From positions 2,309,001 to 2,373,000 of the forward strand of contig NZ_CP025117.1 in assembly GCF_002831645.1 (NCBI RefSeq): a stretch of DNA of 64,000 nt, given 5' to 3'. Origin of the DNA: Olleya sp. Bg11-27. Its GTDB lineage: Bacteria > Bacteroidota > Bacteroidia > Flavobacteriales > Flavobacteriaceae. Below are positions 7,327-45,270 of this stretch, piece after piece (positions within the stretch are counted from its first letter, which is position 1; every line of letters starts with the position of its first letter). Position numbers and translations under genes: made by a program. A model generated the notes under the pieces. That model was not told the origin of the DNA, did no database searches, and worked only from the letters and a program-made list of their open reading frames with translations.

Positions 7327-8206
7327 CCCTTTTTTAGGCACAGGAATAGCAATTGTAACTCCGTTTAATGACGATTTAACAGTGGATTATAATGCTTTAG
7401 AAAAAATTGTAGAATTTAACATTACCAACGGGACTGATTATATCGTAATAAGTGGTACCACAGGAGAAAGTGTGACTGTTACAAAACAGGAGAAAAAAGA
7501 GATATGTAAAGCAATAATAAAGTTTAATAAAGGACGCGTGCCTTTAGTTTTAGGGATAGGAGGGAACAACACATTAGAAGTTGTAGAAGAAGTCAAAGCT
7601 ACAGATTTATCACCTTTTGCAGGCATACTATCTGTGACGCCTTATTACAGTAAGCCAACGCAAGAAGGAATGTATCAACATTTTAAGGCGATAGCTAAGG
7701 TTTGTCCTGTAGATATTATTTTATATAACGTGCCAGGAAGGACAGCTAAAAATATGACACCAGAAACAACATTACGTTTAGCTAAAGATTTTAAGAATGT
7801 AGTAGCTGTAAAAGAAGCGGGTAATAATATGGCGCAATATTTAGAGTTAATTAGAGATAAGCCAAATCATTTTTCTGTGATTTCTGGAGATGATGATTTA
7901 GCATTAGGTGTGGTTTTAGCAGGAGGAGCAGGTGTTATATCCGTTATTGGGCAGGCATTACCAGAAGCCTTTTCTAAAATGATTAAGTTAGGGTTGGAAG
8001 GCAAAGCGAAAGAGGCTTATGGATTACATTTTAAAATGATGGAAATTATAGACTTAATTTTTTCTGAAAATAATCCGGCAGGTATTAAGGCGGTACTAAA
8101 CAATTTGGACCTTTGTAATAAAGCAGTAAGATTACCGTTAGTGGAAGCAACGGAGACGTTGCAAAATAGTATTGCTAGTTTTATAAGTAATTTTAATAAA
8201 AGTTAA
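7319..8206 (+). CDS. dapA: 4-hydroxy-tetrahydrodipicolinate synthase DapA
   Basis: Condenses pyruvate with aspartate semialdehyde, the first committed step towards diaminopimelate and lysine. Length is 295 residues, normal for the family. The Schiff-base lysine is K165 in VAVKEAG, the active-site tyrosine lies in LYNVPGRT, and the substrate loop is ISGTTGES. The start overlaps the previous gene by 8 bases. It is followed by 108 bases and then the bamD promoter, so it likely closes a two-gene operon. Confidence 0.97.
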   Translation: MNNPFLGTGIAIVTPFNDDLTVDYNALEKIVEFNITNGTDYIVISGTTGESVTVTKQEKKEICKAIIKFNKGRVPLVLGIGGNNTLEVVEEVKATDLSPFAGILSVTPYYSKPTQEGMYQHFKAIAKVCPVDIILYNVPGRTAKNMTPETTLRLAKDFKNVVAVKEAGNNMAQYLELIRDKPNHFSVISGDDDLALGVVLAGGAGVISVIGQALPEAFSKMIKLGLEGKAKEAYGLHFKMMEIIDLIFSENNPAGIKAVLNNLDLCNKAVRLPLVEATETLQNSIASFISNFNKS

Positions 8207-8289
8207 ATTATACTTAAACCGACGTCAAACTTGATTCCTTCAATTACTTTAGCAATAAAATTATATTTTTAAAATCCATTTAAATAGCG

Positions 8290-8297
8290 TATTTTTG
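8290..8297 (+). promoter_or_regulatory. Bacteroidota -7 promoter box
   Basis: TATTTTTG fits TAnnTTTG, 17 bases before the bamD ATG. It would be the promoter of the bamD-rpoZ-coaBC-porD group. Confidence 0.5.
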
Positions 8298-8314
8298 CGC
8301 TTCGTTAAAATTAT

Positions 8315-9115
8315 ATGAAGAATTTATTTTACATCTTAATTACATTTTTATTTGTTACTTCTTGTAGTGAGTACCAAAAAGCGCTTAAGTCGGAAGACAT
8401 CGCTTTAAAGTTTACTATGGGGGAGCAGCTTTATAAAGAAGGCAAGTTTAATAAAGCAAGTCGCTTATTTAGTCAAATAGTGCCAGCGTATCGAGGAAAA
8501 CCTCAAGCTGAAAAGCTAATGTTTTTAGATGCGGATTGCTATTATGAGACGGATCAACATTATTTGGCAGGGTTTAGATTTGAACGTTTTGCTAAGTCAT
8601 ACCCTAAAAGTGAAAAAGTAGAGGAGGCGTATTATAAAAGTGCATTAAGCTATGCTGAATTATCACCGGTCTATTCTAAAGATCAACATGATACAGAGCA
8701 TGCCTTAGAGAAGTTACAATTATTTGCAAACTTATATCCAGAGTCAGAGTTTATGCCTAAAATTAATCAGTTGGCTAAGGATTTACAATATAAACTAGAA
8801 TTAAAGGCTTACAGTATAGGTAAACAATATAATCATATTTCAGATTTTAAGGCCTCAATAAGTACTTTGGATAATTTTATAGCTGATTTTCCAGGGACAT
8901 CATTACGCGGAAAAGCAATGTTTTATAGATTTGACTCCGCTTATCAATTAGCAATGAAGAGTGTTGAGTCTAAGAAAGAAGAGCGATTAAATACTGCTAT
9001 ATCATATTATAAGAGCTTTAAGAAAGCAGATTCTGAATTAGAACTTGGTGAAGATGCCGATAAAATGATAGAAGATTTAAAAGAACAATTAGAAAAATAT
9101 AGTACCAAAAGCTAA
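8315..9115 (+). CDS. bamD: Outer membrane assembly lipoprotein BamD
   Basis: BamD is the TPR lipoprotein of the BAM complex that inserts beta-barrel proteins in the outer membrane. The 266-residue product has a lipoprotein signal with cysteine at residue 17 (VTSC) and a string of TPR-like helices: LYKEGKFNKASRLFSQI, the YPKSEKVEEAYYKSA stretch, and a third around FADFPGTSL. Length and layout are typical. It is the first gene of a tight block with rpoZ, coaBC and porD, an order common in flavobacteria. Confidence 0.92.
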   Translation: MKNLFYILITFLFVTSCSEYQKALKSEDIALKFTMGEQLYKEGKFNKASRLFSQIVPAYRGKPQAEKLMFLDADCYYETDQHYLAGFRFERFAKSYPKSEKVEEAYYKSALSYAELSPVYSKDQHDTEHALEKLQLFANLYPESEFMPKINQLAKDLQYKLELKAYSIGKQYNHISDFKASISTLDNFIADFPGTSLRGKAMFYRFDSAYQLAMKSVESKKEERLNTAISYYKSFKKADSELELGEDADKMIEDLKEQLEKYSTKS

Positions 9116-33411: not shown

Positions 33412-33957
33412 TTATTTTACTTCAATTTCGATAGTACTTTGAAATAACCAAATTCCGTCGCTTTTAGTTATTGAACAATGAAATGTGTCTTTGTCAATTA
33501 AATTAACTACTTGATACGAATCTATAAAATAATCAGATTTTCGTTTTTCAGATGTTTCTTTTAGAACTTTATATTTACTCGTATCAATTTTATTTTTGTA
33601 ATCAAGAGCATTTACACTATCCAATTCGAGTTTAAAGTTTCTCCAATAAACTGTTCCGTTTTCGCAGAGTTTTTTTTCTTTTCCATTCGACAAGTTGTTT
33701 TCCAATTCTGTACTATTTTGATAATTTTCAATTTCCTTAACGGGATAGTCAATTTGGTAATAAATTAATGTGTCAAAATTCTTTTTACCAATTAGCATTA
33801 CGTCTTCTCCAAAAATGCGAGCGTATCCTTTTTCAATCAGTAATTCGCAATTTAAATTACGATTAATTTTAAAAGGTTTTCTATAGTCAATTTTATTCTT
33901 TTGTTGACAAGAGAATGAAATCAGAATAAGAAATATGAAAGTTATACTGTGTTTCAT
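33412..33957 (-). CDS. Hypothetical lipoprotein (cassette 1)
   Basis: A 181-residue protein with a lipoprotein signal: hydrophobic residues 5-16 then SFSC with cysteine 17. The mature part is polar, with Lys-, Asn- and Asp-rich strands (LNCELLIEKGYARIFGEDVM) and no motif I recognise. It is the last gene of the cassette array, with a half attC-like site after the stop and the intron-bearing spacer before the start. Function unknown. Confidence 0.75.
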   Translation of the reverse strand: MKHSITFIFLILISFSCQQKNKIDYRKPFKINRNLNCELLIEKGYARIFGEDVMLIGKKNFDTLIYYQIDYPVKEIENYQNSTELENNLSNGKEKKLCENGTVYWRNFKLELDSVNALDYKNKIDTSKYKVLKETSEKRKSDYFIDSYQVVNLIDKDTFHCSITKSDGIWLFQSTIEIEVK

Positions 33958-34013
33958 TTAATGTGCTACAATGTTTAGCGAATATGATTCCGTTTTAATA
34001 AATTAAATGCGAT

Positions 34014-34597
34014 GTGTGTCCCAGGATGGGCCTCTTTTAATTTACGGAAAGGTAAATAATTAATCTAGAGGATGCAAGTCCTTTATACACAGGAGTAATC
34101 CTTCGGCTACGCTCAGCATAAACTAAAAAGGAACCATATACAGAGGTATAATTATGCGAGTAAGCAAGCATAGTATTGTAACGCCCAACGATTACCAAAA
34201 GGGTAATTATGTACATGCGGCAGTGATTGAGTGAAAGAAGATGTCATTACCTGCGGAGATCTCCAAAGTTACGAGTTAGCTATATGGAGCAATCAGCAGA
34301 GGACATAGTACTTATAGGGAACGAGTAGAGGCAATACCACAGATGGTCTCACAAGTAAGGAAGGAGGGAGCGTAATGCTCTTCAAAATTCGCATAGGAGC
34401 ACTTGTGGTAGCCTATGCCTAAATTAGAAGATAGTATCAAGGGTGAAAAGCCCTTTGGCGTGATGATTTACGAACCGCCGTATACGTTCCTGAGCGCTAT
34501 TGCTGGTAGCAATAGAGACGAAAGGATCAACGTAGTTGCGTATGGGTGGTGTGAGAGGCGCACTCCGGCTATTTTAGTCGGAGCCGTCTACTCGATT
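34014..34597 (+). mobile_element. Full-length group II intron lacking its reverse transcriptase
   Basis: The 5' end GTGTGTCCC fits the group II GTGYG rule. Conserved pieces follow in order: a GATGCAAGTCC-type motif, GAGTAAGCAAGCATA, and AATCAGCAGAGGACATAGTA, which precedes the IEP gene in related introns. Domain V starts at 34472 (GAACCGCCGTATACG) and domain VI is the CTCCGgctattttagtCGGAG hairpin with a candidate branch A eight bases from the end. The 3' end is CTACTCGATT; the last T may be exon. The element is about 584 bp, with a 15-codon stub where the protein should be. It runs antisense to the cargo genes. Domain V here has lost about 3 bases on its 3' strand relative to the other copies. 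Confidence 0.85.
34375..34422 (+). pseudogene. Residual intron-encoded protein start (15-codon stub)
   Basis: AAGGAGGGAGCGTAATG is a strong Shine-Dalgarno-like start, unusual in this genome, placed just after the conserved AGCAGAGGACATAGTA stretch where group II introns begin their reverse-transcriptase/maturase gene. The frame ends after MLFKIRIGALVVAYA. It looks like the scar of a deleted intron-encoded protein. Confidence 0.6.
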
Positions 34598-35272
34598 GGC
34601 AATAGTTTTTTTATATTTAAAAGTTGAATATTCTCCTTTATAAACAAAATCTTTAAATTCAGTCGGTGATTTTAAATTCAGTTCTTTTGCTATCTCTATG
34701 TCTTTATAATTGTAATGTCGTTTATTCATAAATCCAACTGAACGAATGGAAGGATGTTCCAAAATCGGTTTTAAATCTCCGTTTTCAACAATTGTGTTTG
34801 TAAATCGAAAGTCAATAAGGTTCGGAAAATGTTTTAGAAAATCTAAATTCTTCAATTTCCCACAAGAGTTTAATCTTAACACTTTTAGTTTTTCTAATTC
34901 ATACAGTTCAGATGTAGGCTCAAACTTTTTAGATTGATTTATATGCAAAATTTCCAAAGTGTTTTTTAAAGAGGAAATTCCGCTGTCATTTTCTAATTTA
35001 GTGCAATAATGCAATTCCAACCTTTTTAAGTTTCTGTATTTTTCAATTCCATTTAAGTCTTTGAAATTCGCCCAATTCATTTCTAAATACAGTAACTTGT
35101 CGGATTCTGGCAGTAAGTCAAATGAAACTCCTTTATGCTTAAAATACCAAAGTATAGCATATTCAATATTTTCAATATTCAGATTCTCTTTGGTTTTTTC
35201 TTTAAAATCCCATTTCGTAAATAAATCGGAATTTATTTGTTCAAACCATATTGTATTAAATCTCCAATCCAT
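34574..35272 (-). CDS. Leucine-rich-repeat-like protein (cassette 2), C-terminus altered by intron
   Basis: A 232-residue protein with LRR-like repeats from about residue 60 to 190: LLYLEMNWANFKDLNGIEKY, NLKRLELHYCTKLEN, LKVLRLNSCGKLKNLDFL and further. No signal peptide. The intron 3' end lies inside the frame, so the last eight residues (roughly NRVDGSD) and the stop codon come from the antisense of intron domain VI. The native ending must have been close by. The role may be protein binding, for instance immunity to a toxin; this is inference. Confidence 0.78.
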   Translation of the reverse strand: MDWRFNTIWFEQINSDLFTKWDFKEKTKENLNIENIEYAILWYFKHKGVSFDLLPESDKLLYLEMNWANFKDLNGIEKYRNLKRLELHYCTKLENDSGISSLKNTLEILHINQSKKFEPTSELYELEKLKVLRLNSCGKLKNLDFLKHFPNLIDFRFTNTIVENGDLKPILEHPSIRSVGFMNKRHYNYKDIEIAKELNLKSPTEFKDFVYKGEYSTFKYKKTIANRVDGSD

Positions 35273-35297
35273 TTTCGTGTTTCGTTATATTGCTGCC

Positions 35298-35677
35298 AAC
35301 TAGTTATATAATTACTTTTATTCCTGATATCCCGTAAATATAACAGGATATAAATAATTTTAAGTACGCATATCCCATAAGACTGCGCCACACAAACCTA
35401 CAATTAATCCTCTACTTATCAAATACGTAATACTACGACTCTTTATTAAACAGGAATAAATTAGAACAATACCATAAGTGTTAGTTTTCGGTAAAGGGTA
35501 TAAACCTTTGTTAGATTATATTAATAATACGCAAACTTCAATTTGGTGAACCGCTGTATACGTTCCTGAGTGCTATTACTAGTAGCAATAGGATACGAAA
35601 GGACTAACGTAGTTGCGTACGTGCGGTGGTGTGAGAGTCGCACTCTGGCTATTCTAGTCGGAGCCGTCTACTCGATT
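35298..35677. repeat. Spacer type A, copy 1: attC-like end plus group II intron domains V-VI
   Basis: It begins AACTAGTTATATAATTAC and contains a small ATATCCCG/AGGATAT-like hairpin and conserved TACGCA and CCACACAAACCTAC stretches. It ends with an intron 3' fragment (35548-35677; GAACCGCTGTATACG through CTACTCGATT). No upstream intron domains are present. The 3' end supplies two of the three bases of the stop codon of the next cargo gene (stop at 35676-35678). Confidence 0.85.
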
Positions 35678-36284
35678 AGGTAACGTTTTTTGTTATCGAC
35701 TTCAATTTTTCAATTAAAGCCTCATTAGAATTTGAGTTTCGTTTCGTTTCTAATTCACTATAATCTAACTTATCGGTAATGTTTATGAGTTCAGTAATGT
35801 TTAGATTGAAAAATTGTGTTTCAGATTCATAATATCCTAATGATTTTTCAGTTGAAACAAGAATAGAATTAGCATCAATTTTATGTATGGATATAATTGG
35901 TCTTGAATTATCAGTAAGTTCTTTTAATATCCCACTCGTTCTATTTAAGATAAACAATTGTCCATTTATTACATCTCCGTAGATTGCTGTGCCAAATAGA
36001 ATATAATTGTCAATCATTAAGACAGCGGAAAGAGGTTCTCTTGACTTCATTTCAATTAATGGCTGAAACTCTTTTCTTTTATAGACTACTATTTTGTGAC
36101 TATTTCGGTCATTCTTGTATTCAATATGTTCGTATTTATATGACTGATGGCATAAATAACTACCCATAATAATATGTTCACAATCAAAATCGACAAATTG
36201 AGGAAGTCCACTACTTGGAAAGAACTTTTCCACTAATGTTGTCAAAATTTCAACTTCTTTATTTGTTTTTTTTTCGATGTTCAT
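35676..36284 (-). CDS. Hypothetical protein (cassette 3)
   Basis: A protein of about 202 residues from the ATG at 36284 (MNIEKKTNKEVEIL). The longer frame from 36362 runs through the spacer palindrome and would add 26 residues that look like spacer DNA, so I prefer the shorter form. The body has short beta-like repeats (LSAVLMIDNYILFGTAIYG; NGQLFILNRTSGILKEL) that could form a propeller-like fold. Its TAA stop is completed by the antisense of the intron end. Function unknown. Confidence 0.68.
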   Translation of the reverse strand: MNIEKKTNKEVEILTTLVEKFFPSSGLPQFVDFDCEHIIMGSYLCHQSYKYEHIEYKNDRNSHKIVVYKRKEFQPLIEMKSREPLSAVLMIDNYILFGTAIYGDVINGQLFILNRTSGILKELTDNSRPIISIHKIDANSILVSTEKSLGYYESETQFFNLNITELINITDKLDYSELETKRNSNSNEALIEKLKSITKNVT

Positions 36285-36479
36285 TGTTATGTTACCTAAC
36301 GGCTCGGCTATGGTTAGTACGGGAATTAAAAGTAGTGAACTTTCGATTAAGCACTTAGCCAAAACTTTTTATTTTGTTTTATCTTTTTTATTGTAAAGCC
36401 AAATCAAAAAGATTTGGCGGACTTCATAAATATACCAAAACTTAGGTTTAAGCACCAGAATCCGTATTAATTATAGCTT
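36285..36479 (-). repeat. attC-like palindromic spacer
   Basis: On the minus strand it opens with AAAGCTATAATTAATACGG and closes with CCGTACTAACCATAGC followed by CGAGCCGTTAGGTAAC. The two arms pair as an imperfect palindrome (GCTATaaTTAaTACGG against GCTATggTTAgTACGG). GTTAGGT is an exact match to the integron R' consensus GTTRRRY. An inner hairpin (AAATC...GATTT, CCAAATC) lies in the middle. Confidence 0.6.
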
Positions 36480-37502
36480 TTATTGTGCACAGTCTTTTTT
36501 TCTCTCGTCCCAAATTAAAGCGGAACAGAATACTTTACTTTCATCTTTTAAATCAAGAAAAGGTTCCATTGTCGTAATTTCCATATCTAATTCTCCCCCT
36601 TTATTAGAACATAATGTTTTGTTTATATTTTCATAAATAATGGCATCTTCTTTATTGTAACCAGGAAATGCAATACTAATTTGAGCATTCCGTGATTTAG
36701 TTTTAAGAACGAACGTATTCAAAAAGCAAAGTAACTCACTCGGTTTATTAATAATATTTACTCCAAGATACATTTCTGGAAACTCAAAATTTATCCAAAA
36801 AGGGTCAGTAATCAAATTCTTTTCAGGATTTAATATTTGTTCTCTTATTTTATCAAGATTCTGATTGAAAAGAAAAATATGACCATACTTTTCAAAACCT
36901 AATAAATAACCAATTTTCAATAAGGCTATTGAGGCTAATCTCATATTTCCATTATCAGGAATTTTCAAATTGAATTGTAATTTTTTAGTAGCGAATTTCC
37001 CTAACTCTCCCTCTATCGGGAACAAACCTCTTTCTTCGCTTTCCAAAAAATCATTATAGTCTTTTGGATTAGAATATTTACTTTGAAGATTTACAGTCAT
37101 TTTTCCATCTCCATCAAAACTTAAATCAGCCGTTACTTTTGAACCTTTATTATTTTCTAATTTGGTTCTGTGTTTAGAATTAGGGCTAAAACTTCTAAAA
37201 TCCTGTTCTAAAAGATATGTTAGTAATTCAACATCAGTTTTATGTCCACTTTCGTTGTTACATTTTTTACATGTCAAAATATTATCCTTGCCTCCTAAAG
37301 ATTTCGGTGGATTATGTTCTAAGGTCAAGTAATTTTTTTGGCTTGGATTTAAGTCGCTTTCAAGAAAAACTTTCAAACATAAAGGACATAATAGACCTTT
37401 GTCAAATTCAACATCGAACTTGGCATTCGTCTTTTCCTTTATCCATTTCAGGTTTTGTGAATAGGCTTCAAATATTTTCTTTTTCTTCTTTGATTTACTC
37501 AT
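36480..37502 (-). CDS. HNH endonuclease domain protein (cassette 4)
   Basis: A 340-residue protein with an N-terminal HNH-type nuclease domain: zinc-binding CxxC at residues 39-42 (CPLC), LEHNPPKSLGG with H63, N74, and CKKCN at 78-82, followed by H87. The C-terminal 250 residues form an unrecognised domain. The start is lysine-rich (MSKSKKKKK). HNH proteins of this layout occur in restriction and other defence systems or as toxins; no partner gene lies beside it in the same cassette. Chromosomal target unknown. Confidence 0.85.
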   Translation of the reverse strand: MSKSKKKKKIFEAYSQNLKWIKEKTNAKFDVEFDKGLLCPLCLKVFLESDLNPSQKNYLTLEHNPPKSLGGKDNILTCKKCNNESGHKTDVELLTYLLEQDFRSFSPNSKHRTKLENNKGSKVTADLSFDGDGKMTVNLQSKYSNPKDYNDFLESEERGLFPIEGELGKFATKKLQFNLKIPDNGNMRLASIALLKIGYLLGFEKYGHIFLFNQNLDKIREQILNPEKNLITDPFWINFEFPEMYLGVNIINKPSELLCFLNTFVLKTKSRNAQISIAFPGYNKEDAIIYENINKTLCSNKGGELDMEITTMEPFLDLKDESKVFCSALIWDERKKDCAQ

Positions 37503-37513
37503 TTTTTCAGCTT

Positions 37514-37653
37514 GCGCACAACGGTCTAGTATAAGAATAGTTGCGGGTTTACGTGCGAGGATTTTCCACAGGAAAATCAGACGTAGTAAACTTGCAACGA
37601 CCTTTGGTTAAGCCCAAAATTGAGCAATTATTTTTATACATTGTTGTATGTAG
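37514..37653 (-). repeat. attC-like palindromic spacer
   Basis: On the minus strand the ends are TACAACAATGTATAAAAATA and TATTCTTATACTAGACCG followed by GTTGTGCGC. The arms are complementary with mismatches. A central hairpin, GATTTTCCtgtGGAAAATC, is perfect. Confidence 0.6.
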
Positions 37654-37657
37654 TCTT

Positions 37658-38395
37658 TTAAGCAATATCATTTTCAATAGCATAATGTTTACCTCTTTCA
37701 GTCAAGTATAAATCTCCATCAGAATCCAGACTTATATATCCTAATTCAACTGCTTCACTTATTAAAACGTCTAAATATATTCGAGATAAACTTGATTCGT
37801 TTAGAACATTACTATAATAAACATATTGATTCGTTGAAGAATTAAAGTATCTTACTAAAATGTTTATTAATTCCAGCATTCCGTCATTAGTCTTTTTCTC
37901 CAATAAAGGACTATCAGTTTTGAAAGGATTATTCCCGACTTTGGGTTTTTTCAGTAAAGGACTATTGTGCATTCTCCTAATTAGTTCATCAAAACTATAT
38001 TCAAATTCCGAACTTTTAGAAAAATTTAGATAAAGTTTAGTCTTTAGAAAAGTTGGTATTGTCGATGTTCCTGATTGTCTAATTATTGGAATTATTTTAT
38101 TTTGGTCAATATTCTGCAATAAATTTGATGTGATAATCATCTTTTCATATCCAACTCCGCCTTTTCCTTCATTAGCCTTTTTAACATAACTTTCAGTACA
38201 TACCATAACAATATAGTCAGAACTTTCAAGGTTAGTTTCCATAAAATGTGGTAAGTCTCCTCCTGGCATTAGTTCCCATTGGTCAAGAATAGCATCAATT
38301 CCGTTATTCCGCATTTTAGTGGCAAGTTCATTTACCCACTTTTTGTGGTCTAAATTATCGTGTGAATATGATATAAATGCTTTTGGTATACTCAT
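37658..38395 (-). CDS. TIR/SEFIR domain protein with winged-helix-like C-terminus (cassette 5)
   Basis: A 245-residue protein. Residues 1-145 are a TIR/SEFIR domain: KAFISYSHDNLDHKKWV, ILDQWELMPGGDLP, and KGGVGYEKMIIT with E84 as the candidate catalytic glutamate of TIR NADases. Residues of about 160-245 resemble a winged-helix domain (LDVLISEAVELGYISLD, then LTERGKHYAIE). Bacterial TIR proteins often act in antiphage defence by destroying NAD+; here the gene stands alone between cassette spacers. Activity is inferred. Confidence 0.88.
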   Translation of the reverse strand: MSIPKAFISYSHDNLDHKKWVNELATKMRNNGIDAILDQWELMPGGDLPHFMETNLESSDYIVMVCTESYVKKANEGKGGVGYEKMIITSNLLQNIDQNKIIPIIRQSGTSTIPTFLKTKLYLNFSKSSEFEYSFDELIRRMHNSPLLKKPKVGNNPFKTDSPLLEKKTNDGMLELINILVRYFNSSTNQYVYYSNVLNESSLSRIYLDVLISEAVELGYISLDSDGDLYLTERGKHYAIENDIA

Positions 38396-38412
38396 AGTTT
38401 TTTAGATTACAT

Positions 38413-39053
38413 ACAACTCGTTATATGGAGACCTTTGTTCCACATATCCCGTAAATATTGTGGGATATCCGCAACTTTAGTTCCTGTTTTATATTTGAAA
38501 AGCTAAGCTACACTTATCCACACAAACTCACAATACGTATAACTACGTATTTTTATCATAACAAGTCGGTTACCCAAAGTTAAAGGATCTAATTATGGTT
38601 TAATTACGGGAATCCTCATTTGGGTAAAATAAAGGCATAAAAAAGACACAAACCTAAGCTTGTGTTTTAGAGTATTTAAAAGTAGATGACGTTAACTTGT
38701 TATGGAGTTTGATTACATCTAATAGGTTATAGCTGCTCAGCTTATGGGTAAGAAAAATAAATACAATCGGTAGTGTTCAAACCAAGAAAGTTATGTGCCT
38801 GTCGGCAATAGCTTATAACCTTAAAAAATATTTAAAGTTTGTACAAAACCGAGCAAAAAGAGAAGGCAAAGCACTTGGCGTTTTGTTTTTTGAAATAATG
38901 GCACTTTACGAGGCTATAAACTTCCATTTAAGCGTATCAAAATTAAGGTAAATCTTAATAAACAATAAAAATTGAGCCTCTTAAAAAGGCTTATTTTGCT
39001 TATTCTATTAGAAAATTATGGGGTTGTGCAACGGTTACCGATGTTGTGCATAG
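38413..39053. repeat. Spacer type B, copy 1: attC-like ends plus IS1182-like 3' end
   Basis: It begins ACAACTCGTTATATGG and shares with type A the TATCCCGTAAATAT hairpin, CACACAAAC, ACTTATC and AATACGTAnAACTACGTAT, so the first 200 bases are homologous. It then carries a terminator-like hairpin (ACACAA...TTGTGTTTT near 38646-38670), a transposase 3' remnant, and an end with GGGGTTGTGCAAC, a likely IS terminal repeat, followed by GGTTACC. Copy 2 is at 43090-43726. Confidence 0.8.
38733..38951 (+). pseudogene. C-terminal remnant of an IS1182-like transposase
   Basis: An open frame, with a stop just upstream, reads VRKINTIGSVQTKKVMCLSA followed by IAYNLKKYLKFVQNRAK, ending VSKLR. This is the ending typical of IS1182-family transposases of Bacteroidota. 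All catalytic DDE residues are gone. It runs opposite to the cargo genes. Confidence 0.7.
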
Positions 39054-39057
39054 TATT

Positions 39058-39627
39058 TTATTTTTTCAATTCCTTTTTCAGAGTTAACAATTCTTTTTCA
39101 TCCAGAAAATAAGGATTTCTATTTTTAAATTTTTTCTTATACTCTTTTAATGAAAAGTCAAAATTGGCAACTATAATTCCTTTTTTTATTTCAATTAATT
39201 CATACTGATTATGAGTAATTCCGTATCCATCTTCGTAATCAATTGGTTCGCCAATAGGCAGTAAAATCAAATCGTTAATCCACTTTATTAAATAACGGTC
39301 ACTGTTAGGTGAAAAATCTTTATATACGCTTTTCCATTTAGTAGCAAACATTTCATTTGATGATTTATCTTGAACTTGTATTTGTAAGTCAGTTAAATAA
39401 ATTTGGTTGCCATATACAGTAAAAGTTGCTACATATCCTCTCCATAATGCAGAAGAACTTATTTCGGTTTTCGGCTTTTTCTCAGGATGCTTTTCAAAAT
39501 AATTTTCAAAATAATAATCTTTTAGTCCATAAGTTTCTCCATTGTAACAAAGAATATCTTTATGTTGTATCGTAGAATAACAACAGAAAGAGCTTAAAAT
39601 AATTAATAACGTGATTATCGGTTTCAT
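39058..39627 (-). CDS. Hypothetical secreted protein (cassette 6)
   Basis: A 189-residue protein with a hydrophobic N-terminus (MKPIITLLIILSSFCCYS), a signal peptide with two adjacent cysteines that may be a weak lipobox. The mature part is rich in Lys, Tyr and Glu and ends in a coiled, basic tail (LKKELKK). Segments such as ALWRGYVATFTVYGNQIYLT look like beta strands. No family recognised. It sits between a type B spacer (after its stop) and a type A spacer (before its start). Confidence 0.75.
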   Translation of the reverse strand: MKPIITLLIILSSFCCYSTIQHKDILCYNGETYGLKDYYFENYFEKHPEKKPKTEISSSALWRGYVATFTVYGNQIYLTDLQIQVQDKSSNEMFATKWKSVYKDFSPNSDRYLIKWINDLILLPIGEPIDYEDGYGITHNQYELIEIKKGIIVANFDFSLKEYKKKFKNRNPYFLDEKELLTLKKELKK

Positions 39628-39657
39628 TCAGGTTTAATGTTTGGTGATATTATGCAC

Positions 39658-40035
39658 AACTAGTTATATAATTACTTTTATTCCTGATATCCCGTAAATA
39701 TAACAGGATATAATTAATTTTAAGTACGCAAATCCCGTAAGGTCACGCCACACAAACCTACAACTAATCCTATACTTATCAAACACGTAGAACTGCGAAT
39801 CTTTATTAAACAGGAATGATTTATAACAATACCATAAATATTAGTTTTCAGTAAAGGCCATAAATCCTTGTTAGATTATAGTACTATAAGCAAACTTCAA
39901 TTTGGTGAACCGCCGTATACGTTCCTGAGCTCTATTGCTGGTAATAATAGAGAAGAAAGGGCCAACGTAGTTACGTAATTGCGGTGGTGTGAGAGGGGCA
40001 CTCCGGCTATTTTAGTCGGAGCCGTCTACTCGATT
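39658..40035. repeat. Spacer type A, copy 2: attC-like end plus group II intron domains V-VI
   Basis: Same layout as copy 1, beginning AACTAGTTATATAATTAC and ending CTACTCGATT. The intron fragment is 39907-40035. Its domain V 3' strand reads CGTAATTGCGGTGG, diverged from the other copies. The stop of the next cargo gene lies outside the intron. Confidence 0.85.
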
Positions 40036-40045
40036 GCCTGCCGTT

Positions 40046-40879
40046 TTATTTATTACTTTTTCTTTCTAAATTTCCGTTAATATCATAATATTTATATTCT
40101 ATTGTTCTTTCATTTTCATCAACAGTTACCGTTTTCAAATTTCCGTTTTCCCACCAAGTTTTATGCTCCCCATCTTTCCGTTTATTGTTTTCTGAATAAA
40201 TTGTATGACTGGCTAATTGTCCATTTTCATACCAATAAAAACTGTCTTCCGAATATTCATTGTTTTTAAAGAAAGATTTCCATTTAAGTTGTCCGTCCTT
40301 GTACCAAGATTCCCAATTCCCGAATCTATATCCACCATTATCATAAAACTCTATTGCTTTACGTTGTCCATTTTCATAAAAATAATTCCACTCGTCAATT
40401 TTTTGTGAATTTCTATACTCACCCTGCGATTTAATTTGTCCATTTGAATAGTATTCAATCCATAAACCAAATCGCAAGAAATTATGCGATTGCCCGACTA
40501 CTTTTATCTGACCATTTGAATAGAAGTTATCAGGTGTTATGTTTCTGTAATAGTCATATAGAAGTGCCTTGTAAATAATTAAAGGTACTTCACAAATATC
40601 AGGATCAGGTGAGTTTTGTCCATATATAAATTCAATTCGAACTATTTTATTTTCTATAATATCAATTTCACAACCTTCTGCACTTGGCAATCCGACACTT
40701 CTGATATGTGGATTTTCAACTCGTTCAAATTTGTTAAGAGAATAGGCTTCACATTCTCTTAAAGCAAGTTCAATGGTCAATAAGTCTTTAGAAACTGTCA
40801 ACAGCCATAACGCTAATTGATGGTTCTCAACTTCGTGTTTTTGTAATACTGTTTTTATATGTTCAGAAATATCTTTCAT
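40046..40879 (-). CDS. MORN-repeat (YwqK-like) protein (cassette 7)
   Basis: A 277-residue protein with at least six MORN-variant repeats from about residue 120, each built on a Y-x-NGQ-like core (YSNGQIKVVGQ, YYSNGQIKSQGEY, YENGQRKAIEFY, YKDGQLKWKSFF, YENGQLASHTIY, WENGNLKTV). The N-terminal 110 residues are a separate unrecognised domain. Similar proteins are annotated as YwqK-type antitoxins or immunity proteins. No toxin partner is seen in this cassette. Confidence 0.85.
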   Translation of the reverse strand: MKDISEHIKTVLQKHEVENHQLALWLLTVSKDLLTIELALRECEAYSLNKFERVENPHIRSVGLPSAEGCEIDIIENKIVRIEFIYGQNSPDPDICEVPLIIYKALLYDYYRNITPDNFYSNGQIKVVGQSHNFLRFGLWIEYYSNGQIKSQGEYRNSQKIDEWNYFYENGQRKAIEFYDNGGYRFGNWESWYKDGQLKWKSFFKNNEYSEDSFYWYENGQLASHTIYSENNKRKDGEHKTWWENGNLKTVTVDENERTIEYKYYDINGNLERKSNK

Positions 40880-40905
40880 TTAAAGGTTCTCTTATAATGG
40901 CTGGC

Positions 40906-41286
40906 AACTAGTTATATAATTACTTTTATTCCTGATATCCCGTAAATATTACAGGATAATTTTCAATTTGATCGTACGCAAATCCCATAAGACTGCGCCA
41001 CACAAACCTACAATTAATCCTCTACTTATCAAATACGTAATACTACGACTCTTTATTAAACAGGAATGATTTACAACAATAGCATAAGTGTTAGTTTTCG
41101 GTAAAGGGTATAAACCTTTGTTAGATTATATTAATAATACGCAAACTTTAATTTGGTGAACCGCCGTATACGTTCCTGAGTGCTATTGCTTGTAGCAATA
41201 GAGGCGAAAGGACTAACGTAGTTGCGTACGTACGGTGGTGTGAGAGGCGCACTCCGGCTATTTTAGTCGGAGCCGTCTACTCGATT
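40906..41286. repeat. Spacer type A, copy 3: attC-like end plus group II intron domains V-VI
   Basis: Same layout as the other type A spacers. The intron fragment, 41158-41286, has the best preserved domain V: lower stem ACCGCCGTA/TACGGTGGT, a two-base CG bulge, upper stem TACG/CGTA, and a 52-base insert in place of the apical loop. Confidence 0.87.
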
Positions 41287-41295
41287 ATAGGTTTT

Positions 41296-41697
41296 TTATA
41301 AATACGAATTTAGCTTTTCGAGTATTTTTGTAGCTCCATAGTTTTTTGCCGTTTGGATTCCTGTTTTTGGATTCGCACCAGCTTCCAAAAGAGCGTTTAT
41401 AATATCCAAATTTTCTTCTCCTTCTTTTCCACCCGTATTAATATTCACTTGAACAGATATGTCAACAGCATGATCTAAAGGAAAACCTTCTCCATCAGTT
41501 CCAATAAACTCAACATCCGCACCTTTGTCAAGTAATAATTTTAGACAATCCAGATTTTCATTTTCAATTGCAGAATGAAGTGGCGTCCAAAATTCACCTT
41601 TTTGGTTAAGTTCAACTTTATTTTTTAGCAGTAACTTTAGCTGATCTAAATTTCCTTCAAAAGCTGCTTTACAAATTTTATCAAAGTCATTTTTCAT
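41296..41697 (-). CDS. Ankyrin-repeat protein (cassette 8)
   Basis: A 133-residue protein made of about four ankyrin repeats: AAFEGNLDQLKLLLKNKVEL, TPLHSAIENENLDCLKLLLD then KGADVEFIG, LDHAVDIS, and DIINALLEAGANPKTG. No signal peptide, so cytoplasmic. Such short ankyrin proteins bind other proteins and are common as immunity or cargo genes in cassettes. Partner unknown. Confidence 0.88.
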   Translation of the reverse strand: MKNDFDKICKAAFEGNLDQLKLLLKNKVELNQKGEFWTPLHSAIENENLDCLKLLLDKGADVEFIGTDGEGFPLDHAVDISVQVNINTGGKEGEENLDIINALLEAGANPKTGIQTAKNYGATKILEKLNSYL

Positions 41698-41842
41698 AAT
41701 GAGAATTCTGACTAACTTTTTTTTTATATTCTGAAAAATCAGTTGTTAGTGATTCTGTTTTTTAGTAGTATTTTATTCTTTATCAGCTAATTAAACGTTA
41801 GCCTAAAATAATTATTTGTTTTTTCCACAAAGAGAGGAATTA
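41698..41842. other. AT-rich leader between cassettes 8 and 9
   Basis: About 145 bases between the ankyrin gene start and the palindromic spacer, with no gene. It contains AAACGTTAGCC, which looks like a decayed cassette junction. Confidence 0.35.
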
Positions 41843-42042
41843 CCTATAACGGTTTGTGTATGAAATGTAGCGTGTAAAAAGACGCTAAACTTTCGGATAA
41901 ACACAGAGCCGAATTTTTATATTTTGTTTTTACTTTTTTATTCTAAAAGCCAAATTTAAAAATTTGGAGGTCTTTAAAAATAAGAACCAACCTTTCGACT
42001 TAGCACTTATTAGCTATGTTTTATACACCGTGTTGTAAGTAG
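41843..42042 (-). repeat. attC-like palindromic spacer
   Basis: On the minus strand the arms are CTTACAACACGGTGTATAAA and TTTCATACACAAACCGTTAT. An inner hairpin has CCAAATTTTTAAATTTGG, shared with the spacer at 44243. Confidence 0.6.
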
Positions 42043-42045
42043 TTT

Positions 42046-42486
42046 TTATTGAAAACCAAGAGATCCAATAGCAGTAATGTGATTACCTAATTCAAAATCA
42101 GATCGTTCTTTGTTAAATACTACCATTTTTTCATCACTACTATTATCCAAACCGTATTGATTACCAATTTTATCTATTAAATCTGACATATTTCCTTTAG
42201 AGGAAAATGAACCAATTTTTTTGCCTTCTACAAATTCATATTTTTGGCAAAGACTTAATATTCTAACTGTGTCCAAAGTTTCCTGATTGACACCAATAAA
42301 TTGATAGTAATATTTAGATTTGTTATCACAATATTTTCCACCTGAATAGGATAAAACTTTAATTTTAGTTTGTTCTTTCAGTTTGACAATATCGAAATTA
42401 CAATCTTCAAGTTCTTTATATTCAAATTTACTTTCTGAGCAGGAAATTAGTATAGAGGTTATTATCAATAAATAAAGATATTTCAT
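42046..42486 (-). CDS. Hypothetical lipoprotein (cassette 9, second gene)
   Basis: A 146-residue lipoprotein with signal MKYLYLLIITSILISC (cysteine 16). The mature part has a C-x16-C pair and no recognised motif. It lies 6 bases after the previous gene (42493) and shares its spacer unit, so this pair is the only two-gene cassette in the array. The two may work together in the envelope. Confidence 0.75.
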   Translation of the reverse strand: MKYLYLLIITSILISCSESKFEYKELEDCNFDIVKLKEQTKIKVLSYSGGKYCDNKSKYYYQFIGVNQETLDTVRILSLCQKYEFVEGKKIGSFSSKGNMSDLIDKIGNQYGLDNSSDEKMVVFNKERSDFELGNHITAIGSLGFQ

Positions 42487-42492
42487 ATTTGT

Positions 42493-43068
42493 TTAATTAG
42501 TTATTTTAAATGAGTTTAGGAATTTATTAATTGAAATATTTGCTAAGTTTTCTTTTTCAGTTAATACAGTTAAGGTGTATTGCTCATTATTAATAAAATA
42601 CATTTTAATGTTGCAATAAAATTGACTATTTGGAATTGAAAAATATATTTCACGACCAGGATATCCTTTGTAGGATATTTTTTTATTAAAAAACAATTTA
42701 CCATTAAACATCCCAATAATATTATCTACAGCACCTTGTAAATATTCATCAATTTTCTCTATTTCGATTTTATAATCTGGATATTTTGAGTGTGAAAATG
42801 TATAACCATAACTAAGTAATTGACTTTTTGAATTAGTTCGTGTTAGCGTCCAAGTTTGGTCTTCTTCATTCCCAAAATCAGGACTTATTATAGTATCATT
42901 AGATATTTTATAATTATCTTCGGGTAATGAAAATTCTACATTTCTTTCTTGATATTTTATAGTAGCCCACTCAGTTCTAATTGGTTCCTTTTCTGCGTTA
43001 TTTTGTCCATATAGATTAATATTTAAAAATAATATTGCTAAAAGTATAAAATAATATTTTTTATTCAT
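42493..43068 (-). CDS. Hypothetical secreted protein (cassette 9, first gene)
   Basis: A 191-residue protein with a signal peptide (MNKKYYFILLAILFLNINLY, cleavage near GQ). The mature part has a mixed beta pattern (EWATIKYQERNVEFSLPEDNY; GYPGREIYFSIPNSQFYC) like small periplasmic PsbP/MOG1-type proteins, but I cannot assign it. Paired with the lipoprotein gene 6 bases downstream. Confidence 0.75.
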   Translation of the reverse strand: MNKKYYFILLAILFLNINLYGQNNAEKEPIRTEWATIKYQERNVEFSLPEDNYKISNDTIISPDFGNEEDQTWTLTRTNSKSQLLSYGYTFSHSKYPDYKIEIEKIDEYLQGAVDNIIGMFNGKLFFNKKISYKGYPGREIYFSIPNSQFYCNIKMYFINNEQYTLTVLTEKENLANISINKFLNSFKITN

Positions 43069-43089
43069 TTTTAATTTTTTAAATTACTT

Positions 43090-43726
43090 ACAACTCGTTA
43101 TATGGAGACCTTTGTTCCACATATCCCGTAAATATTGTGGGATATCCGCAACTTTAGTTCCTGTTTTATATTTGAAAAGCTAAGCTACACTTATCCAGAC
43201 AAACTCACAATACGTAGAACTACGTATTTTTATCATAACAAGTCGGTTACCCAAAGTTAAAGGATCTAATTATGGTTTAATTACGGGAATCCTCATTTGG
43301 GTAAAATAAAGGCATAAAAAAACACAAACCTAAGCTTGTGTTTTAGAGTATTTAAAAGTAGATGACGTTAACTTGTTATGGAGTTTGATTACATCTAATA
43401 GGTTATAGCTGCTCAGCTTATGGGGTAAGAAAAATAAATACAATCGGTAGTGTTCAAACCAAGAAAGTTATGTGCCTCTTGGCGATAGCTTGCAACCTTA
43501 AAATTATGTGAAGTTTGTACAAAAACGAATAAAAATTGAAGGAAAGGCACTTGGCGTTTTGTTTTTTGAAATAATAGCACTTTACAAGGCTATAAACTTC
43601 CATTTAGACGTTTTAAAATTAAGGTAAATCTTAATAAACAATAAAAATTGAGCCTCTTAAAAAGACTTATTTTGCTTATTCTATTAGAAAATTATGGGGT
43701 TGTGCAACGGTTACCGTTGTTGTAAA
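43090..43726. repeat. Spacer type B, copy 2: attC-like ends plus IS1182-like 3' end
   Basis: A near copy of 38413-39053, beginning ACAACTCGTTATATGG and ending with the GGGGTTGTGCAAC motif and GGTTACC. The two copies differ at scattered positions and by small indels. Confidence 0.82.
43417..43627 (+). pseudogene. Transposase C-terminal remnant, frameshifted
   Basis: Homologous to 38733-38951, but an extra G (TGGGGTAAG) and a stop soon after MCLLAIACNLKI break the frame. It is more decayed than copy 1. Confidence 0.65.
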
Positions 43727-43732
43727 ACGTTT

Positions 43733-44227
43733 TTATTCCGCTTTTAAATATTCATATGTTTTAGTCCAAATATTAGCCACTTCAAAATGTCGATAAAACA
43801 TTACCCAATTCGTTTTTTCCGAAATCAGAGTTACATCATCAGAACTCGGATATAAAAAATCAGTCCAATATTTTATAAATATTTCTTTCGTTGTTTTCAG
43901 CGTAATGTTCCGATGCCAAGTTATTATTATTTCTTCATCCCATTTTTCCAGAGTCAATTCGAGTTGGTTTCTAAACCGCTCAATTTTCTCATCACTTTCT
44001 GCATTCGTACTTATCCAATCCGTTTGAGTAAATTTTTCTCTTAAATTATATTCCTGTTCGAAATAATCAATGACCTTATTCAGTCTTTTCGATTCCATTT
44101 CAGAAACTGGTTGGATTTGTTTCTTTTCAGATTCAGAAATATCAGGACAATGAGTTTTTTCAAATCTCCAGCCTAATTCAAATTCGTTTAGAGGAACTAT
44201 TTCTTTATCGTCTATTGCTATGTTCAA
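43733..44227 (-). CDS. Hypothetical protein (cassette 10)
   Basis: A 164-residue soluble acidic protein (MNIAIDDKEIVPLNEFELGW). The middle is helical and charged (MESKRLNKVIDYFEQEYNLR; FRNQLELTLEKWDEE). The C-terminus has aromatic-rich strands (NWVMFYRHFEVANIWTKTYE). No signal peptide and no family recognised. It lies between a type B spacer and a palindromic spacer. Confidence 0.72.
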   Translation of the reverse strand: MNIAIDDKEIVPLNEFELGWRFEKTHCPDISESEKKQIQPVSEMESKRLNKVIDYFEQEYNLREKFTQTDWISTNAESDEKIERFRNQLELTLEKWDEEIIITWHRNITLKTTKEIFIKYWTDFLYPSSDDVTLISEKTNWVMFYRHFEVANIWTKTYEYLKAE

Positions 44228-44242
44228 TGGTTGGTCTAAATG

Positions 44243-44446
44243 TTTTACAACGGAATTGTATAAGAATAGTAGGGCGGAAAAAATGCACGAACTATTCGGT
44301 TAAACACAAGCCGAATTTTTAAATTTTTCTTGTTATCTTTTCTTCTAAATAAGCCAAATTTAAAAATTTGGCGACTTCGCAAAAATGCCCAAGCCATTGA
44401 ATTAAGCGCTAATTGCCCTATTATTTTTATACGGTGTTAGCTTTAG
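44243..44446 (-). repeat. attC-like palindromic spacer
   Basis: On the minus strand the arms are CTAACACCGTATAAAAATAA and TACTATTCTTATACAATTCC followed by GTTGTAAAAC. Near the outer ends TATAAaAATAaTAGGGC pairs with its near-complement. The middle has CCAAATTTTTAAATTTGG and is related to the spacer at 41843. Confidence 0.62.
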
Positions 44447-44450
44447 TTAT

Positions 44451-45050
44451 TTATTCAAAAAAAATATTGTTTCCGAATTCGATAGTTGTAAAGTCAGATT
44501 CTTTAAAATAAGTTTTCAATTCACGTTTTCTTTTTCGAAACTCCTTTTTCTTCTTCCTTATATTATATTTTGAAGTCGTTTCTTTATCATATTTCCCTTT
44601 AGGGTTTTCCATTCCGATTATCAATTCGCTGTAAACACGATTGAAATTCTTATTAGCAAAATGTATTATAATATCAGACTTTCTTTTTTTACATAGTTCA
44701 AAATCAAAATTTGAATCGGTTGTATTTCCATTAAAAGATAAACTCAATGTTTTGTATTCTGAACCATCTTTTTCAAAGGTCAGTTTTTGTTTTTTATTTA
44801 GGTTAAAATTCAGAGTGTCTATTTTTGAGATTACTAGGATGGAAATGATGTCTTCATTTTCTAACAACATATTATCATAATACAATTCCCGTGATTTATT
44901 TAGCTTAAATATTCCGTCTTCTGTTTTTATAAATATTCCAAAATCAGAACTTTTTAAAGTGTCAATTTCTTTCAAAACAAATAGCTCGGAATTTTGGGAA
45001 AATCCAATAGTAAAATTCAAATACAGGATTAAGGCAAAAATGTTTTTCAT
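44451..45050 (-). CDS. Hypothetical secreted protein (cassette 11)
   Basis: A 199-residue protein with a signal peptide (MKNIFALILYLNFTIGFSQ). The mature part is Lys- and Asn-rich and predicted mixed beta, with a strongly basic stretch near the C-terminus (YNIRKKKKEFRKRKRELK). No family recognised. It is the first cargo gene, read in the direction of transcription, after the truncated type A spacer at 45061. Confidence 0.72.
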   Translation of the reverse strand: MKNIFALILYLNFTIGFSQNSELFVLKEIDTLKSSDFGIFIKTEDGIFKLNKSRELYYDNMLLENEDIISILVISKIDTLNFNLNKKQKLTFEKDGSEYKTLSLSFNGNTTDSNFDFELCKKRKSDIIIHFANKNFNRVYSELIIGMENPKGKYDKETTSKYNIRKKKKEFRKRKRELKTYFKESDFTTIEFGNNIFFE

Positions 45051-45060
45051 AATTAAAGCT

Positions 45061-45270
45061 AACTAGTTATATAATTACTTTTATTCCTGATATCCCGTAA
45101 ATATAACAGGATATAATTAATTTTAAGTACGCAAATCCCGTAAGGCTACGCCACACAAACCTACAACTAATCCTATACTTATCAAATACGTAGAACTACG
45201 TATATTTATGAGACAAGCGCAATTTATAACAGTAACATAAATATTAGTTACGGTTTTCCGTAAGGACATA
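45061..45270. repeat. Spacer type A, truncated copy without intron
   Basis: It begins AACTAGTTATATAATTAC like the other type A spacers and stays similar through the AATACGTAGAACTACGTAT stretch and ATAAATATTAGTT. It then diverges before the point where the others carry intron domains V-VI. It marks the right edge of the array. Confidence 0.8.

Follow-up and report, generated by a model that had tools for sequence, protein, structure and literature searches.

The cassette array and its spacers

The window considered here, that is, the whole stretch of 64,000 nucleotides (positions 2,309,001 to 2,373,000 of contig NZ_CP025117.1) from the 4.31 Mb genome of Olleya sp. Bg11-27, carries at approximately 33.3–45.3 kb an array of about eleven cassettes of small genes, separated by spacers which we read as the recombination sites of an integron-type array: attC, the site of the cassettes, and attI, the site adjoining the integrase gene. 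An earlier note on this DNA had distinguished two kinds of spacer, type A and type B, said to share their left part and to end, respectively, in the tail of a group II intron and in a fragment of an IS1182-like transposase, IS denoting an insertion sequence. The features on which the analysis is based are the following.

33412–45050, minus strand: cassette array, about eleven cassettes, ten with one open reading frame (ORF) and one with two
34010–34598, plus strand: group II intron with no ORF as long as 90 aa on its own strand, in the site below the ORF 34574–35272; RF02001 matches at 34068–34245 with 55.2 bits
35298–35677, minus strand: spacer A1, with leader at 35298–35486 and intron 3' part at about 35491–35677 (intron on the plus strand), ending at GT^T of the R'' arm
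37519–37646, plus strand: uninterrupted attC-type site, 132.1 bits
38415–38555, minus strand: B1 leader, with attI core (CATATAACGAG^TTG, minus strand), integrase C-terminal codon remnant (..KQELKLRISHNIYG), promoter-like stretch and palindrome
38503–38533, minus strand: B1 promoter-like sequence of Bacteroidetes type, TTG-N20-TAGCTTAG
38532–38551: B1 palindrome AATACGTATAACTACGTATT at the -33 region, a possible operator
38556–38736: B1 mid segment, with a terminator-like element of hairpin and T-run at about 38643–38668 (hairpin by eye), a module common to the B copies
38737–39038, plus strand: B1 IS1182 3' tail, with transposase C-terminus at 38748–38948 and right end GGGGTTGTGCAACGGTTAC at 39020–39038
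39039–39054, minus strand: B1 remaining 6-bp target copy CGATGT (39039–39044) and R'' box GTTGTGCATAG.. of cassette 39058–39627
39658–40036, minus strand: spacer A2, with leader at 39658–39846 and intron 3' part at about 39851–40036 (plus strand)
40906–41286, minus strand: spacer A3, with leader at 40906–41096 and intron 3' part at about 41101–41286 (plus strand)
41847–42036, plus strand: uninterrupted long attC-type site, of which the model match covers 41847–41929 only
43092–43232, minus strand: B2 leader, with attI, integrase C-terminal remnant, promoter-like stretch and palindrome
43233–43412: B2 mid segment, with a terminator-like hairpin (by eye)
43413–43714, plus strand: B2 IS1182 3' tail, reading frame broken
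43715–43730, minus strand: B2 target copy CGTTGT and R'' box GTTGTAAAACG.. of cassette 43733–44227
44248–44440, plus strand: uninterrupted long attC-type site, outside the model matches
45061–45249, minus strand: leader A4, at the array's upstream edge; no end of a mobile element was found within 760 nt

The type B spacers lie where they had been placed, and their right-hand end is indeed a 3' portion of an IS1182 transposase: the first (B1) runs from an AAC core at 38415 to the GTT of R'' at 39043–39045, the second (B2) from AAC at 43092 to GTT at 43719–43721, and the two are 78–100% identical in each block of 50 alignment columns. The type A spacers, as had been described, finish in the 3' end of a group II intron. 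The claim that both kinds share their first 200 bases holds in part, since they are 74–76% alike in columns 1–50 and 70–80% in columns 100–150, whereas columns 50–100 and 150–200, at 46–54%, are at the level of shuffled sequence (about 50%); homology across 200 nt was thus rejected, only two blocks exceeding the background. The proposed alignment for an exact switch point did give such points, which are not common to A and B: B changes into IS1182 at about 38736 and 43412; in A intron sequence sets in near 35487, 39847 and 41097, the points at which the intron-less copy (45061–45249) ceases to match.

The shared left part belongs to neither mobile element, contrary to what the earlier note had named as its refutation. 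An origin within the IS was rejected on account of the attC arms of ordinary kind which lie left of complete IS1182 copies, and an origin within the intron because, of five complete introns, three or more are by eye preceded by an attC arm. The shared left part is an integrase-less leader, composed of a promoter-like stretch and attI.

An integron-type array and its integrase

Cassettes start with GTT and further bases which recur, as their complement, at the cassette's own 3' site (GTTGTATGTAAT / GTTGTATGTAGT and GTTAGCTTTAAT / GTTAGCTTTAGT), a match which was scored in six cassettes of the window. Starts and R'' boxes were compared as fixed partners; boxes lacking GTT and cores lacking AAC were dropped, which left 41 R'' boxes (of 53) and 75 left cores (of 89). 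The start agreed with its own R'' at five or six of the six variable bases in 21 of 31 adjacent pairs, as against 112 of 3017 non-adjacent ones; in 16 of the 21 matching pairs, R'' had G at position 11 where the start had A. This test superseded an initial scan, in which 27 of 106 candidates scored at least 6 as against 25 of 530 shuffled ones. In 22 uninterrupted attC sites 14 pairs join the two arms; pairing amounts to 97.1%, both sides have changed in 24 cells, and neither figure was reached in 500 shuffles; the sites had been chosen by a pattern requiring TAT on both arms, so that the pairing is partly built in, which does not hold for the double changes at other columns.

An attC covariance model gave 70 sites in the Olleya genome (E <= 0.01) and matches in eight of ten relatives, from at least 1 to at least 102 each (at least 85 in the sister genome G005 and at least 102 in G023, of another genus), these being lower bounds because 150 candidates were scored per genome; in the other two relatives, which belong to other families, the same procedure gave none. 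The window array contains two model matches and further sites and has no integrase beside it, as in a cluster of attC sites lacking an integron integrase (CALIN). On the strength of these patterns, the spacers are regarded as the recombination sites of an integron-type cassette array, the window array as CALIN-like and the overall architecture as that of an integron. Among the matches listed for G023, many lie in two long runs, at about 2.215–2.263 and 2.733–2.792 Mb, one of which ends near the integrase of that genome at 2.794 Mb. One cassette gene of the window (37658–38395, minus strand) encodes a TIR/SEFIR-domain protein which matches bSEFIR, a family of anti-phage defence (E 3e-79), and Pfam TIR_2.

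The integrase gene lies at 1.108 Mb (region L067, 12093–13320, minus strand) and is the sole match of the genome at E <= 1e-30; two weaker or partial matches to the integron-integrase model, at 1.734 and 3.213 Mb, are other tyrosine recombinase genes. The gene forms one open frame in the closest relatives (G003 and G005), and an intact copy of 393 aa is present in a relative of the same genus. For comparison, 80 integrase loci were used, the best 80 of 543 with a relative of the Olleya integrase when its C-terminal part was the query; by their titles they are mostly Flavobacteriaceae, the rest being metagenome-assembled genomes called Flavobacteriales, Bacteroidia or Bacteroidetes.

In 67 of these 80 loci the motif TATAAC-n(1-3)-GTT is found around the integrase stop, at most 110 nt past the end of the match, and the 9-mer with which the first cassette begins recurs downstream as its own R'' in 33 of the 44 loci with enough sequence, as against 24 of 865 with keys taken from other loci. 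It is because of these two results that attI is placed at the 3' end of intI, on the strand of the cassettes. In the Olleya genome it lies at about 12056 of L067, adjoining the integrase gene, and the first cassette after that gene begins at a core which is also carried by the left part of the A and B spacers.

The leaders

The leaders were compiled by hand, and not exhaustively, from 332 kb of fetched sequence and the window, giving 38 sites, namely 37 leaders and the integrase-linked site. Apart from the gene itself, a remnant of the integrase C-terminus was found in 17 of the 37 leaders, B1 and B2 included, as against 3 of 760 shuffled sequences; in B1 it reads KQELKLRISHNIYG, where the integrase gene has EQKLRISRNI. 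Farther from the core, 21 of the 37 leaders (54 of 1850 shuffled sequences) show a promoter-like pattern, TTG-N18-21-TAnnTTnG, which we take to be the Bacteroidetes-type promoter consensus; it was absent by that test from the other 16, one of which, inspected by eye (1869559), has TTTC for TTTG. A palindrome, AATACGTAG..CTACGTATT, likewise lies farther from the core. The leader block had no match in G023 at E <= 0.001.

Elsewhere in the genome, at about 1.2389–1.2401 Mb (L072, 2880–4054), a 138-nt unit is repeated in tandem 8.5 times; every copy contains the leader palindrome AATACGTAGAACTACGTATT and a terminator-like hairpin, and the array adjoins an ORF which by eye resembles a response regulator. 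Short matches to this unit, about 140 or 280 nt apart, also occur in G002, G003, G005 and G008.

Since the palindrome recurs in that 138-bp array by the response-regulator-like gene, and type A leaders carry no integrase remnant, the shared left part might be supposed to be an unrelated regulatory repeat, only superficially like the region after the integrase. Such a repeat is scarcely credible: cassette starts begin at its core, and it is already contradicted by the attI motif of 67 of the 80 loci and by integrase codons, present in 17 of the 37 leaders as against 3 of 760 shuffles.

Mobile elements inserted at attC

The earlier note had asked for complete IS1182 copies, and eleven, all in attC-type sites, were found in the Olleya genome. 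The B1 tail (38748–38948) agrees at 81–85% with four copies of one kind and at 53–57% with seven of a second kind, complete copies of the two kinds scoring 321.4 and 321.0 bits against an NCBIfam IS1182 cut-off of 270. With nine near-complete copies in G005 (one with stops), these eleven make up a set of 20; none of these kinds was found in eight other relatives at E <= 1e-60. In all 20 copies the left flank is an attC arm ending in TGT, so that all share one orientation relative to that arm, and inverted ends containing GTTGCACAAC are present on both sides (2–3 substitutions allowed), while identical 6-mers CNNTGT flank 17 of the 20. As in the IS1182 family, the transposase exceeds the family cut-off and the terminal repeats are inverted; the difference lies in the target, all 20 copies examined being at attC and 17 with a 6-bp CNNTGT duplication. 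No account of IS1182 at attC was found in the open-licence literature, as judged by titles and abstracts.

The whole B block (leader, mid segment and IS1182 right end) could be thought of as a non-autonomous element which the IS mobilises from attC to attC, given that the same sequence of about 640 bp stands at several cassettes next to different target hexamers. This would, nonetheless, be improbable, since the left end of the block is an attI core with no IS1182 left inverted repeat, attC arm or second target copy (by eye), and leaders free of the IS stand at array edges.

Five complete group II introns are preceded by NNTGT, and TT plus R'' follows in the four for which right flank sequence is available; the 3' tails of introns, likewise, are followed by TT and the R'' of the cassette. 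The introns are therefore placed at GT^T of the R'' arm. The only RNA model matched by the intron is group-II-D1D4-3. Group IIC-attC introns, according to passages of PMC7923331, insert at TTGT/T in R'', opposite to cassette transcription, and leave truncated copies in arrays; the position in R'', the orientation and the truncated copies are the same here, whereas many of the present tails are joined to attI leaders and the intron is assigned to group II without a class. The sole group II reverse transcriptase above the cut-off (3776909–3778015, minus strand, in L083) lies inside another cassette array and is not linked to the intron copies; its strand is opposite to that of the intron copies listed for plus-strand arrays. 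In the 3' part of the intron (34470–34560 and the type A tails), about 50 nt extra seem, by eye, to replace the tip of domain V and are common to many copies.

Elements of the IS110 type occupy the other arm of attC, near the AACGT core and in the same orientation. They lie in L067 at 1500–2860 and 7330–8680 and in the genome at 956692, 2618526, 3076493 and 3081197; the two L067 copies encode a transposase of 330 aa, and the copy at 3081197 is only 68% alike. A third type of right-hand tail, ending in CACAGTACTTT directly before the GTT core, was observed at four leaders: 3092065, 3089856 and 3084738 (L080/L081) and 2769958 (L078).

The suggestion that the spacer attracts insertions is thus borne out, the attracting sequence being an attC-type site, in which all 20 near-complete IS1182 copies of the two genomes sit and whose same arm the introns enter at GT^T. 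That two unrelated elements occupy the same position and orientation is correct as to arm and orientation, and as to position only to within the 6-bp duplication.

The leader-tail joint and a proposed mechanism

In six copies (955886, 959707, 968415, 2347736, 2352412 and 3086802) the mid segment that follows the leader is joined to IS1182 at element position 1535–1540; five of the six keep the right end of the element, and the R'' boxes beside those five differ. The search of other genomes for other tails was rewarded in G005, where two of six fetched leader loci (of 36 matches) have the same joint followed by another IS1182 tail: after about 40 nt these tails switch to the other kind (IS1182b-type), with which they are 91–93% identical. 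One joint at several cassettes, with two kinds of tail, is a pattern which recombination between IS1182 tails would be expected to produce.

The same facts bear on a different history, in which the leaders mark the borders where once-separate arrays became joined, each through a single deletion, and no tail-to-tail recombination took place. Array fusion is favoured by two leaders of another array (1872064 and 1882752), each of which by eye adjoins an almost intact attC remnant without any element, and by the presence of leaders at array edges; independent deletions, however, would hardly give the same junction of mid segment and IS1182 beside six cassettes and again, before a different tail, in a second species. 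Fusion is therefore considered rather unlikely.

The preferred account is that the A and B spacers are cassette ends in which the remnant of an attC-targeting element has been joined to an attI leader, and we consider that, as a whole, it is probably right. In such a scheme an attC-targeting element, IS1182 in the case of B and a group II intron in that of A, would have inserted into the R'' arm of an ordinary attC. The remaining part of the element, its 3' end beside R'', would then become joined to a copy of the leader, with a terminator-like hairpin, a promoter-like stretch and attI, and in about half of the cases a remnant of the integrase end. The leader/IS joint may have had a single origin and then passed from cassette to cassette, homologous recombination taking place within IS1182 tails, which all have the same orientation, and intron tails may have spread likewise. 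Each leader would give the cassette downstream a new promoter and a second attI, and because of this the array would fall into sub-arrays, for all of which one integrase would act in trans. In addition, the terminator-like hairpin of the mid segment would end transcription coming from upstream, and B-type cassettes could still move through attI, as delta-attI-type cassettes do.

Weighing the interpretation

Several results speak against parts of this account and have to be set beside it. As regards the leaders, the four of type A in the window all have an integrase-remnant score at background (15), and the identity of their attI rests for this reason on the core and the collinear blocks. Three of the 20 near-complete IS1182 copies have no matching duplication, and no leader precedes several of the intron and IS1182 tails, whose left neighbours are of other kinds. 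Homologous recombination between tails is a step that we infer from sequence patterns only. In the array, a looser second scan for the start/R'' match was weak (70 of 801 candidates as against 37 of 801 with shuffled keys) and was superseded by the fixed-partner test; the number of attC pairs with double changes, five, was reached in 24 of 500 shuffles; and the outer attC arms were paired in one of six sites in single-sequence DNA folds. Finally, the integrase of the Olleya genome is split over two overlapping frames around a T-run, which makes its current activity doubtful, and in the intact relative, aligned in two pieces, the additional domain is missing, with 18 residues where VchIntIA (2a3v) has 61.

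This last point touches the definition of the system. The two motifs which frame the additional-domain region are 64–65 residues apart in 67 of the 80 loci, the pair not having been found in the other 13, and the integrase scores below the cut-offs of both the integrase_gron family (195.6 and 198.1 as against 265 bits) and the XerA-type family (203.1 and 203.4 as against 220). The additional domain is given as a feature used in defining integron integrases in PMC2426708, and its insertion is called essential for integron function in PMC8138268, on integron-like tyrosine recombinases, whereas here integrases without this patch stand at attI and cassettes. Because the domain is missing and the family scores fall short, the enzyme is not classed as a canonical IntI. 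What is most unusual, to judge from the sequences, is an integrase without the additional domain which yet stands with attI, attC and cassettes of integron architecture; by that architecture the system would work like an integron, and recombination of attI with attC is predicted.

A further point against is the frequency of the tails themselves. An element tail is present at all five inner leaders of the window, and an element-type 3' end lies within 760 nt in 16 of the 38 leader sites (nine intron, three IS1182 only and four of the third type, two of these also IS1182-like); in the other 22, one of which is the integrase-linked site, no element right end was found within that distance, two of them (959387 and 1890477) retaining an IS1182 remnant without its right end. 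A general coupling of leader and tail was rejected on these numbers. They also tell against the idea, raised in the earlier note, that the right-hand tail has a structural job, some tails being moreover without a leader. In its wider form this idea holds that the 3' tail is kept for a selected role, as structure, terminator or site, and several copies do retain the 3' end alone, the IS1182 part having a hairpin-like repeat and the intron tail keeping its domain V-VI sequence (by eye). Against selection stand the 22 leader sites without an element right end, the broken frame of B2, a B copy which has lost the right end of the IS, and complete copies with intact 5' halves at the same place, the 3' end being retained because the insertion site adjoins the cassette that is kept. 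A selected role is, in consequence, very improbable.

Relation to known systems and significance

In class 1 and class 2 integrons there are delta-attI-type cassettes, in which the gene is followed by attI, or part of it, instead of attC; such cassettes are reported to be excisable (PMC12901181, in part). B1 and B2 likewise have an attI sequence in place of attC downstream of the gene, and excision would be predicted by analogy; they differ in that this attI comes with a promoter-like stretch and a terminator-like hairpin, in chromosomal arrays and behind mobile-element tails. In Treponema integrons, as far as described in passages of PMC3607928, intI is transcribed toward attI and on the same strand as the cassettes, as here, in another phylum. 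In a flavobacterial phage, Polaribacter phage P12002L, a CALIN has been described, one attC of which is reported to recombine with attI1 through IntI1 (PMC9892861, in part); attC sites are common to both systems, the phage CALIN consisting of two sites described without an integrase. No description of the present flavobacterial system was found among the open-licence papers listed, as judged by titles, the starts of abstracts and passages, which is no proof of absence.

The presence of many patch-less integrases at attI and cassettes means that the requirement for the patch can be tested directly, and searches which demand the IntI patch could miss systems of this kind. For the Flavobacteriaceae, it is tentatively proposed, at somewhat less than even confidence, that there is a widespread class of integron without the additional domain, with an unusually long cassette-specific R box (about 10 matches, with a recurrent mismatch at position 11) and with attI 3' of intI, and that in one lineage the arrays have in addition been re-punctuated by portable promoter-attI leaders, spread via the 3' tails of an IS1182 lineage and of a group II intron. 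On this view attC is a landing site common to unrelated elements, and the debris of such elements may provide the homology by which promoter-attI leaders can move, turning large arrays into separately expressed blocks.

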